Below, piece by piece: positions 54,300-57,050 of a stretch of DNA of 64,000 nt (positions are counted from its first letter, which is position 1; every line of letters starts with the position of its first letter). The DNA is from Herbaspirillum autotrophicum (GTDB lineage Bacteria; Pseudomonadota; Gammaproteobacteria; Burkholderiales; Burkholderiaceae_D), in the NCBI RefSeq assembly GCF_001189915.1, contig NZ_LFLS01000011.1, forward strand, positions 1 through 64,000, written 5' to 3'. A program made the translations under genes and the position numbers. The notes beneath the pieces are model-generated. The model did no database searches and was not told the DNA's origin. It saw nothing but the letters and a program-made list of their open reading frames with translations.

Positions 54300-54328
54300 G
54301 GCCCGCAGTTCACAACTGCGGGCCGTTT
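54300..54328 (+). terminator. terminator after ansB
   Basis: An 11-bp perfect stem (54300-54310 with 54314-54324), CAC loop, then GTTTG. It lies 36 bases after the stop and also separates ansB from the convergent GDT1 gene. Confidence 0.8.
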
Positions 54329-54369: not shown

Positions 54370-54945
54370 TCAGAAGCCGATCGACTTGCCGGCGCCGAGC
54401 AAGGTCGCAATACCAATGATGGCAAAGATCAGGGCTGCAATCGCATGCACCACGCGTACCGGAATCCGTCCCGCAATACGGTCACCAAGCAAGACTGCCG
54501 GCACGTTGGCGATCATCATGCCCAGCGTGGTACCTGCCACCACCGCGAAGAACGCGTGATATTGAGCGGCCAGTGCCACCGTGGCCACTTGTGTCTTGTC
54601 GCCCATCTCAGCCAGGAAGAAGGCCACCACCGTCGTTCCGAATACACCGAAGCGCACGAACTTGGCTTCCTCTTCGTCGAACTTGTCTGGAATCAGCGTC
54701 CAGATTGCCATTGCGATAAATGATACGCCAAGCACCCAGCGCATGATTTCAGGCGACGCGAGCGAGGTGATCCAGGCACCGAGAGCGCCGGCAAATGCAT
54801 GATTGGCGATGGTCGATACCAGAATGCCCAGAATGATGGGAATCGGTTTGCGGAATTTTGCAGCGAGAATGAAGGCGAGCAGTTGTGTCTTGTCGCCGAT
54901 TTCGGCCAGGGCAACTACGCCGGTAGAAACGAGAAATGCATCCAA
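54370..54945 (-). CDS. GDT1/UPF0016-family cation (Mn2+) exporter
   Basis: A 191-residue inner-membrane protein of the TMEM165/GDT1 family with six helices in two inverted halves. Each half carries the conserved acidic motif: VALAEIGDKTQLLAFI and FFLAEMGDKTQVATVA. Bacterial relatives export manganese (MneA-type). The start is TTG at 54945, with GGAG at good spacing; the in-frame ORF to 55071 runs back through the riboswitch and is not coding. Control by the manganese riboswitch upstream strongly supports Mn2+ as the substrate. Confidence 0.92.
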   Translation of the reverse strand: MDAFLVSTGVVALAEIGDKTQLLAFILAAKFRKPIPIILGILVSTIANHAFAGALGAWITSLASPEIMRWVLGVSFIAMAIWTLIPDKFDEEEAKFVRFGVFGTTVVAFFLAEMGDKTQVATVALAAQYHAFFAVVAGTTLGMMIANVPAVLLGDRIAGRIPVRVVHAIAALIFAIIGIATLLGAGKSIGF

Positions 54946-54966
54946 TTGGGGTCTCCATGGCCGGAC

Positions 54967-55019
54967 AAAAAAACGATGACCACACCTCTCCCCGGCCAAA
55001 TCCGAAGGCAGTATGGTCA
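54967..55019 (-). terminator. riboswitch-controlled terminator
   Basis: On the minus strand TGACCA (55019-55014) pairs with TGGTCA (54982-54977), followed within 3 bases by seven T (54973-54967). The same TGACC is also the 3' strand of riboswitch helix P1, so the two folds exclude each other. Metal binding should favour P1 and read-through. Confidence 0.75.
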
Positions 55020-55126
55020 AAGGTCTTGTCAAGCACAGGAACCGCTTGCACCATGGTCGTTTTTTGACCAAGTATGTTGATGCAAGCCCCTCCTCAGGGC
55101 GGAAGGCGACTACTCCCCAATGACCC
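55014..55126 (-). promoter_or_regulatory. yybP-ykoY manganese riboswitch aptamer
   Basis: Read on the minus strand, the 5' part has the conserved GGGGAGTAG (55118-55110) after P1 strand GGTCA. The middle has CAACATACTTG (55079-55069), and the 3' part has ACAAGACCTTTGACC closing P1. These are the core conserved elements of the yybP-ykoY class, which binds Mn2+ and usually activates exporter genes. It lies directly before the GDT1/UPF0016 gene. Confidence 0.92.
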
Positions 55127-55130
55127 GCGC

Positions 55131-55159
55131 ATTCTACTCAATTTATTTTTAACCGTCCA
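55131..55159 (-). promoter_or_regulatory. promoter of the riboswitch transcript
   Basis: On the minus strand TGGACG (55159-55154) and TAGAAT (55136-55131) have a 17-base spacer. Transcription would start within a few bases of the aptamer's 5' end. Confidence 0.65.
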
Positions 55160-55436
55160 TCAAAAAGCATCCCGCCAGGCAATCGCGGAACCATCTCCGG
55201 CACATCGTACTCAGTACCTGCAGAGCAAGTGCAAGCCGCTGTTCCCTGCGCTTGCGATTGCAGACAACATGTTATCTTTCTGTACTGCAAGCACATGGTT
55301 CAACGTGACATTGACAGACCGACATCATCCGGATGCCAATGACAATTGCCAATATCATCCAGTGCCAGCGACCTTTTTTCGCGTCGTTTAATGCCCGCCC
55401 ATTTCGACAACACACCATTCCCGACATCGCCTGCCC
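55160..55436. other. non-coding gap before opgD
   Basis: About 275 bases between the riboswitch promoter and opgD. Expected to hold the opgD promoter, but no convincing boxes were recognised, and there is no ribosome site of note before its ATG. Confidence 0.4.
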
Positions 55437-57050
55437 ATGATCAATCGCCGTGACTTTCTGACTTCTGCCACCGCCGCTGCCGCCCTTTCTGCACTCGGCA
55501 TCCCCCCCGCCGCCATTGCCGCTGACCGCATCAAACTTGGCAACGCCCGCGATTTTTCATTTGATGACTTGATCGCCCGCGCCCGTACGCTGGCGCAAAC
55601 TGCGTATAAAGCGCAAGCGGCAGCGCCGCGCGAGATACTGGAAAAAATCGATTACGAAGCGCACGGCAAGATCAAATTCGATACCGGCCATGCCTTGTTT
55701 GCCAACGGCCCGGGACAATTCGCGGTGACCTTCTTTCACCTCGGGCGCTTCTTCCAGTCACCGGTTCACATGCATGTTGTGACAGGGAACGGCGCTGCTG
55801 CCAAAGCGCGCGAAATCGTCTACGACGAAAGCTACTTCGACATGCCCGCCGATAGTCCCGCGCGCCAGTTGCCGAAAGGCAGCGGCTTCGCCGGCTTCCG
55901 TTTTCAGGAAAGCCGGAGCGGCGATCAAAGCAAACTGGACTGGCGCAAAAACGATTGGGTGGCGTTTCTCGGCGCCTCCTATTTCCGCGCCATCGGTGAT
56001 CTGTATCAATATGGTTTGTCGGCGCGCGGCATCGCCATTGATGTCGCACAAGCCGGCAAGGCAGAAGAATTTCCCAACTTCACGCACTTCTATTTCGAAA
56101 CCCCGGCCGAGGGCAGCAATACCGTCACCCTTTATGCGTTGCTCGACGGCCCCAGCATTGCCGGTGCCTACAAGTTCGTGATGACACGCAGCACCGGCGT
56201 CATCATGGATATCGACACCGCCTTGTTCCTGCGGCGCGACATCGCCCGTTTCGGAATTGCGCCGCTGACTTCCATGTACTGGTTTTCGGAAACGGTCAAA
56301 GGCACCGGTGCCGACTGGCGTCCCGAGGTGCATGACTCGGATGGACTAGCGATCTGGAATGGCGCCGGCGAACATCTCTGGCGGCCGCTCAACAATCCGC
56401 CGCGCACCACGGCATCGGCGTTCGGCGACAACAATCCGCGCGGCTTCGGCCTGTTGCAGCGTGACCGCAACTTCGACCACTATCAGGATGGCGTGCGCTA
56501 TGAAGACCGCCCGAGTCTGTGGGTCGAGCCGCAGCAAGGATGGGGCGAAGGTGCGGTGCAACTGATCGAAATTCCCACCGACGATGAAATTCACGACAAC
56601 GTGGTGGCAATGTGGGTACCGCATGCACCGGCGGTTGCCGGCAACAGCTACCGCCTGAGTTACCGGTTGCACTGGCTGCACGACGAGCCGTTCCCGACAC
56701 CATTGGCGCGCTGCGTCGCGACGCGGCTCGGCAACGGCGGCCAGCCGGGGCAGGCACGTCCGCAAAATGTGCGCAAATTCATGGTCGAATTCAAGGGCGC
56801 CCCGCTCGAACAACTTCCCTTTGGCGTCAAGCCGGAAGCGGTATTGTCGGCATCGCGCGGCAGCTTCTCTTATGTATTTACCGAAGCCGTTCCGAATGGC
56901 GTTGCCGGACACTGGCGCGCGCAATTCGATCTGACTGTCGACGGTGATGCACCAACAGAGATCCGGCTCTATCTGCGTCTCAAAGACAAGACCTTGTCGG
57001 AAACCTGGCTCTACCAGTACTTCCCGTTCAAGACCGGCAAACCCTATTGA
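55437..57050 (+). CDS. opgD: periplasmic glucan biosynthesis protein OpgD (MdoD)
   Basis: A 537-residue periplasmic protein that trims or shapes osmoregulated periplasmic glucan backbones. The N-terminus is a twin-arginine signal (NRRDFLTSA, ending near AIAAD), which separates OpgD from Sec-exported OpgG. The MdoG/OpgD domain fills the rest, with GQFAVTFFHLGRFFQ, SSYFRAIG-like GASYFRAIGDLYQYGLSARG and LTSMYWFSETVKG. No opgH or opgG is adjacent, so the glucan synthase must be elsewhere. Confidence 0.92.
   Translation: MINRRDFLTSATAAAALSALGIPPAAIAADRIKLGNARDFSFDDLIARARTLAQTAYKAQAAAPREILEKIDYEAHGKIKFDTGHALFANGPGQFAVTFFHLGRFFQSPVHMHVVTGNGAAAKAREIVYDESYFDMPADSPARQLPKGSGFAGFRFQESRSGDQSKLDWRKNDWVAFLGASYFRAIGDLYQYGLSARGIAIDVAQAGKAEEFPNFTHFYFETPAEGSNTVTLYALLDGPSIAGAYKFVMTRSTGVIMDIDTALFLRRDIARFGIAPLTSMYWFSETVKGTGADWRPEVHDSDGLAIWNGAGEHLWRPLNNPPRTTASAFGDNNPRGFGLLQRDRNFDHYQDGVRYEDRPSLWVEPQQGWGEGAVQLIEIPTDDEIHDNVVAMWVPHAPAVAGNSYRLSYRLHWLHDEPFPTPLARCVATRLGNGGQPGQARPQNVRKFMVEFKGAPLEQLPFGVKPEAVLSASRGSFSYVFTEAVPNGVAGHWRAQFDLTVDGDAPTEIRLYLRLKDKTLSETWLYQYFPFKTGKPY

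Follow-up and report, generated by a model that had tools for sequence, protein, structure and literature searches.

A manganese riboswitch before a GDT1-type exporter gene in Herbaspirillum autotrophicum, and a covarying helix beside the start codon that may take part in switching

The window analysed here, 64,000 nucleotides of Herbaspirillum autotrophicum, carries on its minus strand a riboswitch unit in front of an exporter gene, and raises the question of how metal binding to such a leader would be passed on to the gene. The mode of action of yybP-ykoY riboswitches in Gram-negative bacteria, whether by termination, by translation or through Rho, is unsettled: the authors of the study on Vibrio mneA leave it open (PMC13274385), and the passages on Escherichia coli mntP in PMC11647493 join translation with Rho.

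The leader matches the Rfam model of the Mn2+ riboswitch (RF00080) over its full length (model positions 1–177, E 1.9e-25), and the core motifs GGGGAGUAG and UCAACAUACUUGG as well as the model helices are all present in the covariance model alignment (Table 1). An earlier note on this DNA had read a yybP-ykoY aptamer with its core motifs here and had named an Infernal search with this model as a check; the search, with a score above the gathering cut-off, bears the reading out. The promoter described in the same note was recovered at the same place by a promoter scan, which found one site between 54900 and 55200 (0.1 expected) and two promoter-like sites between 54000 and 56500 (1.2 expected). 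A -10-like hexamer occurs in 57 of 58 GDT1-type units, in 50 of these 12–14 nt 5' of GGGGAG, where shuffles lead one to expect 12.3. Given this conserved spacing of the -10 element among the GDT1-type relatives, transcription most probably starts at the P1.1 5' strand. The unit can be assigned to a known class of Mn2+ riboswitch, and binding of and response to Mn2+ are predicted.

Table 1. Features of the riboswitch unit and exporter gene, in window coordinates and in the order of transcription.
Feature	Position	Strand	Basis or remark
Sigma-70-type promoter: -35 TGGACG (55159-55154), 17 nt, -10 TAGAAT (55136-55131)	55131..55159	-	
RF00080 manganese (yybP-ykoY) riboswitch match	54950..55130	-	101 bits vs gathering 45
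P1.1 5' strand GGTCA; probable transcription start at or shortly before it	55121..55125	-	sequence
Aptamer core GGGGAGTAG	55110..55118	-	RF00080 alignment
P1.1 3' strand CCTTTGACC, common to P1.1 and S1	55015..55023	-	
S1 5' arm TGACCATACT, competes with P1.1	55010..55019	-	covariation
S2 5' strand TGGCCGGG, within S1 loop	54991..54998	-	covariation
S1 3' arm GGTGTGGTCA	54977..54986	-	covariation
T7 run, separated from S1 by 3 nt; may act as a weak intrinsic terminator	54967..54973	-	score -1.7
S2 3' strand TCCGGCCA, ends 12 nt 5' of start codon	54958..54965	-	covariation
Shine-Dalgarno-like GGAG	54953..54956	-	sequence
GDT1/UPF0016 cation exporter, 191 aa, TTG start	54370..54945	-	PF01169 150.2 bits

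The riboswitch sits upstream of a Mn2+-related gene and in the same direction. The encoded protein has two PF01169 matches and the motifs AEIGDKTQ and AEMGDKTQ (EIGDKT, EMGDKT), the signature of GDT1/UPF0016 being one or two E-x-G-D-K/R-S/T motifs (PMC7380456). By domain match and signature motifs it is a GDT1/UPF0016 exporter, as the earlier note had it; an NCBIfam search with the protein assigned no family, and its closest named relative is that of a Herbaspirillum frisingense MAG (87%). The TTG start proposed in the note is likewise backed by the relatives, since the exporters of 58 GDT1 units align at residue 1, where ATG stands in 46, TTG in 11 and a mis-set TTA in one. The divergent neighbour (55437–57050) encodes MdoG (PF04349), a protein of periplasmic glucan biosynthesis in which a TAT signal matches weakly. 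On the other side of the exporter gene, a strong hairpin with T-runs on both sides (54300–54324) is likely a terminator shared with a convergent asparaginase gene on the plus strand.

Relatives were sought in 145 genomes of the family, 93 of which contain RF00080, and 107 RF00080 places, two from the window's own genome included, were analysed. The next gene, assigned by tblastn, is GDT1 at 58 places, MntP at 24, a Na/Ca exchanger at 18, TerC at five and none of these at two; Pfam confirmation covered one representative each of the Na/Ca exchangers (PF01699) and TerC (PF03741). The five TerC units were excluded from all counts of helix S2, described below; the two places without any of the four genes are L105 and L106. 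Dropping of duplicates removed three of 82 rows from the GDT1/MntP alignment (A1, 79 left) and three of 100 rows from the alignment of all three classes (97 left). Several observations were made in passing. The second unit of the window's own genome (L002, contig C1 13654–13776, minus strand) lies before mntP; its RF00080 match of 30.6 bits is below the cut-off, and GGGGAGTAG and the S1 and S2 strands are recognisable. Among the eight genus members listed with a match, a GDT1-linked unit is found in the window's genome and in G142; G026, G059, G082, G101, G116 and G129 have an MntP-linked match only. The TerC units (L103, L107–L110) come from five genomes of one genus and have weak matches (22–30 bits) and a divergent aptamer. 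The aptamer of L024 holds about 100 extra nucleotides with inverted-repeat-like ends 5' of the GGCAAGACC strand, which by eye resemble the insertion of a small mobile element, and at the same place longer hairpins are seen by eye in L030, L039 and L052.

The aptamer is joined to what follows it by a shared strand. P1.1 pairs GGTCA with TGACC (55019–55015), and the hairpin S1 downstream uses the same TGACC in its 5' arm; P1.1 and S1 are mutually exclusive. The earlier note had claimed that one strand both closes the aptamer and forms the first arm of a terminator; the sharing of the strand with the hairpin S1 is confirmed, and the S1 pairs covary. The bare duplex energies are -7.6 kcal/mol for P1.1 and -13.7 kcal/mol for the lower part of S1, and S1 should therefore win without metal docking. 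In the Xanthomonas oryzae (Xory) riboswitch, which belongs to the same aptamer class, Mn2+ stabilises P1.1, according to passages that treat the aptamer (PMC6754395); the word 'pseudoknot' occurs nowhere in the text of that paper.

A third helix, S2, would be formed by pairing of the S1-loop bases 54998–54991 with the pre-start bases 54965–54958, giving with S1 the topology of an H-type pseudoknot. Its 3' strand ends 1 nt short of GGAG, so that GGAG itself is uncovered; the predicted structure reaches the ribosome-binding site, as in mntP, and is accompanied by covariation. In the window alone S2 does not exceed chance (shuffle p 0.07), and the case for it rests on the relatives. A helix of at least six pairs (G-U allowed) between the S1 loop and the stretch from S1 to the start is found in 58/58 GDT1, 22/24 MntP and 16/18 Na/Ca-exchanger units, and single-unit shuffles give p<0.05 in 43 of the 58, 13 of the 24 and 15 of the 18 units, respectively. 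The first test of S2, with gapped duplex energies, was weak (means of -25.2 kcal/mol for cognate pairs, -20.7 for non-cognate pairs and -18.2 for shuffled tails); in many units the true partner did not come out on top, GGCCGG/CCGGCC being frequent and almost a palindrome. The test was replaced by ungapped helices and counts over columns, and the cognate ungapped helix beats the non-cognate one in 7032 of 8864 comparisons, with 357 equal. The best-helix search miscalls S1 in some units (e.g. L025, L036, L040, L042), and some S2 calls are extended by G-U pairing with the T-rich linker.

Compensatory changes support the pairing. On alignment A1, S1 and S2 together show 154 cells in which both sides of a pair have changed, against a shuffle mean of 56.1 (sd 5.6); none of 500 shuffles reached the observed number, and slid controls yield at most 45 such cells. 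Written as a pseudoknot, the two helices pair in 84.9% of cells (shuffles 72.8). The changes fall in 5/8 S1 pairs and 6/8 S2 pairs; this number of pairs, 11, is unexceptional, being reached by 70 of the 500 shuffles. For S2 alone, 75 both-side cells were counted over the 97 distinct units (shuffle mean 26.5, maximum 40), in columns chosen as the best-pairing ladder, a choice that the shuffles did not repeat. By class, the count is 34 in GDT1 (shuffle maximum 21), 9 in MntP (7) and 6 in Na/Ca-exchanger units (5), with 500 shuffles each. The helix can be built from quite different letters, as GGATTGAGCGGG/TTCGCTCAATCC in L022 and GAGATCGGGCG/CGCCCGATCTC in L036 illustrate. The consensus of RF00080 leaves the S2 positions unpaired.

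Helices of this type were also found beyond the family, in counts made without shuffle control. All 25 class-level loci, two of which (L111 and L134) are identical in sequence, give at least six pairs, by eye not at the S2 place in L121, L128 and L133. Of 80 named GDT1 loci, 46 are preceded by the aptamer core, and in 39 of the 46 at least six pairs are obtained, with Thiothrix, Thiolinea and Nevskiaceae represented; the remaining seven comprise L168 and six Burkholderia/Paraburkholderia loci, where the first aligned codon and not the true start was taken as the start.

The place of S2 follows start codons. The called helix ends 7–21 nt (median 12.5) 5' of the start codon in the 58 GDT1 units and 10–17 nt (median 14) 5' of it in the 24 MntP units, so that all 82 lie within 7–21 nt. 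In 17 of the 18 Na/Ca-exchanger units the exporter start is 87–151 nt away from S2; in the same 17, an ATG 10–16 nt past S2 opens a leader ORF of 27–46 codons, whose stop overlaps the exporter start as ATGA in 15 and which ends 10 nt into the exporter gene in two. As S2 lies shortly before the leader-ORF ATG there, its place tracks a start codon rather than a gene, and this spacing argues for action on translation initiation. The arrangement looks like translational coupling through a leader peptide. The leader ORFs (in L017, L038, L043, L051, L056, L061–L063, L065, L066, L068, L069, L073–L075, L079 and L087) seem unconserved in sequence.

Two alternative means by which the start region might be masked were tested and set aside. 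Pairing of the freed 5' strand of the aptamer with the start region (TTGGGG with CCCCAA) has a shuffle p of 0.04 in the window but lacks conservation: across 81 of the 82 GDT1 and MntP units the mean p is 0.55, with two under 0.1. An anti-Shine-Dalgarno role for the part of the S1 loop before S2 fares no better, with a mean p of 0.65 over 81 units and four under 0.1. With these two candidates, no second conserved contact with the start region was found in the 81 units.

The best explanation of the family match, the shared strand, the conserved S1/S2 pairing and the position of S2 at a start codon would include metal binding, coexistence of S1 and S2, an effect on the ribosome and, in part, termination. 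Excess Mn2+ would act on the yybP-ykoY riboswitch to turn on the GDT1/UPF0016 Mn2+ exporter. Without Mn2+, the downstream arm would capture the P1.1 3' strand CCTTTGACC to form the hairpin S1, the loop of S1 would pair with the bases before the ribosome-binding site, and the resulting pseudoknot would hinder 30S binding; in the window's unit some transcripts may, in addition, stop at the T7 run near 54970. In the presence of Mn2+, docking of the aptamer would lock P1.1, S1 would lose its lower half, the pseudoknot and any terminator would be weakened, and the exporter would be made. The probable arrangement, in our view, is an ON-switch for Mn2+ built on competition between P1.1 and a start-site pseudoknot of S1 and S2, perhaps with some weak termination in the window's unit. 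S2 could also persist as a plain hairpin in both states; its role in switching is what we infer.

The foremost alternative is a purely transcriptional on-switch, with S1 and T7 as an intrinsic terminator, P1.1 as the antiterminator and no part for S2. This is the mechanism published for the yybP-ykoY switch of Lactococcus lactis, where, as described in PMC11087558, the 3' strand of P1.1 is shared with a downstream terminator hairpin and Mn2+ turns the switch on; it is also what the earlier note had proposed. The strand common to P1.1 and S1 fits it, and the hairpin lies where the note had placed its terminator. The region 55030–54967, which holds S1 and T7, has a folding energy of -25.1 kcal/mol (z -3.3), better than each of 200 shuffles. 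A pattern scan of 54900–55200 reported no terminator, but a hairpin such as S1 exceeds the loop limit of that scan, 8, and would in any case have escaped it. Between the S1 stem and T7 lies a gap of 3 nt, and the terminator score is a borderline -1.7, rank 17 among the 58 GDT1 units; on the same scale the ordinary terminator at 54324–54300 scores 26.1 and 18.8 on its two strands. Scores above 0 are obtained in 16/58 GDT1, 5/24 MntP and 4/18 Na/Ca-exchanger units. Within 14 nt of the end of S1, a T-run of at least five is found in 7/58 GDT1 units (the window's and L010, L012, L015, L021, L023 and L027) and in 0/24 MntP and 0/18 Na/Ca-exchanger units. In GDT1 units, T makes up a mean fraction of 0.37 of the 15 nt of L3; this richness in T would be accounted for by a terminator and speaks against the pseudoknot reading. 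As T-runs and scores are not kept in the relatives, termination is possible in the window's unit but not a common feature. Since RNA polymerase reaches the 3' strand of S2 only once it has passed the T-run, S2 should be unable to contribute to termination there, and its conservation would be left unexplained. Control by termination only is therefore in our judgement unlikely, though it deserves more credence than the explanations that follow. Of the note's proposal, the riboswitch, the exporter target, the shared strand and the ON logic stand; the terminator, borderline in score, set off by its 3-nt gap and unconserved, is supported in part and is not a family trait. Set against the L. lactis switch, the window's unit has a borderline terminator and relatives that do not keep the T-run, and it shows S2 beside the start codon. 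Judged from the sequences, what the relatives conserve is S2 beside the start codon, with compensatory changes, rather than a terminator. This points to translation initiation as the step at which all these units are controlled; intrinsic termination would at most add to it in the window's unit.

A second alternative accepts S2 and reverses its role: a full-length S1 would be too long for the linker, and S2 would form only when Mn2+-held P1.1 opens the foot of S1, locking the ON state. The linker between S1 and S2 is commonly about 8–12 nt for an S1 of about 7–13 pairs. Two extra S1 pairs occur among the 79 units of alignment A1, C1-G63 in 61 and C2-G62 in 56; with these CC/GG pairs, or with the approximately 3 nt that the predicted full S1 of E. 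coli mntP leaves before the S2 3' strand, the linker looks too short for both helices, S1 and S2 may exclude each other there, and S2 might belong to the ON state. Without the extra pairs, however, 8–12 nt looks enough for a pseudoknot, and one would expect translation to be reduced rather than increased by a helix so close to the start site. We think it rather improbable that S2 is an ON-state helix; the pseudoknot of the OFF state is preferred.

The comparison with E. coli K-12 mntP introduces a further alternative. Its aptamer scores 41.6 bits with RF00080, just below the cut-off, and an S2-like pair (GCUGGGG/CCCCGGU, no control run) lies directly before CAGGA. It is thus like the window's unit in aptamer class, in having S1- and S2-like helices immediately 5' of the ribosome-binding site and in being turned on by Mn2+ (PMC11647493), but controls MntP instead of GDT1, has a 229-nt leader and lacks a T7 run after S1. 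The same paper reports that the leader hides the ribosome-binding site without Mn, which favours the start-site reading, and that Rho ends transcription; against that reading, mntP is described in a review as controlled at the level of transcription as well as of translation (PMC7838592). In the window's unit, too, the leader in its OFF state might be poorly translated and Rho might end transcription, S1 and S2 acting only through translation. This would be compatible with S2 at the start site; on the other side, it would have no need of the T7 run, and we hold it to be doubtful, to the same degree as an ON-state S2. In Vibrio, mneA (UPF0016) is a member of the same exporter family behind the same aptamer class and is Mn-induced; RNA-seq of V. 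parahaemolyticus gave no drop in coverage at the riboswitch, a point in favour of the start-site pseudoknot, and the terms 'secondary structure', 'terminator' and 'pseudoknot' each have 0 occurrences in the text of that report (PMC13274385). That the window's unit is a decayed, non-functional copy, as the finding of a GDT1-linked unit in two of the eight listed genus members with a match might suggest, is extremely improbable given the 101-bit match and the intact core, promoter, start site and exporter frame.

The start-site pseudoknot competing with P1.1 may have a wider reach. It is about an even question whether the Mn2+ riboswitches of beta- and gammaproteobacteria have one common platform, a three-helix switch of P1.1, S1 and S2 on translation initiation used for GDT1, MntP and leader-ORF-coupled Na/Ca exchangers, with the T-run of the window a late addition. 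Within the genus, Hsnc112 of Herbaspirillum seropedicae, one of 117 sRNAs from prediction and RNA-seq, belongs to the same RNA family and lies before MntP (PMC7011215); its counterpart is L002, the second unit of the window's genome, and not the GDT1 unit.

The aptamer, the exporter target and the competition for P1.1 are already known. S2 next to the start codon is apparently undescribed: it was not met in the accessible parts of the literature on yybP-ykoY, mntP, UPF0016 and Mn2+ riboswitch pseudoknots or platforms, and the founding papers of 2015 (Dambach 2015; Price 2015) may show it. The nearest published idea met is that, at lower pH, Mn binding might be hindered by a triple helix into which the part of the mntP leader past the aptamer folds back (PMC9603457). 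The sole pseudoknot mentioned in PMC7838592 belongs to preQ1, and the passages on the Mn2+ riboswitch in PMC9495176 show no S2. S2 would extend the Rfam model at positions that its consensus has unpaired, and a covarying start-codon helix common to three exporter families offers a precise target for mutation. Its presence in the relatives suggests control of protein synthesis, and not only of RNA termination, in the response of these bacteria to manganese.
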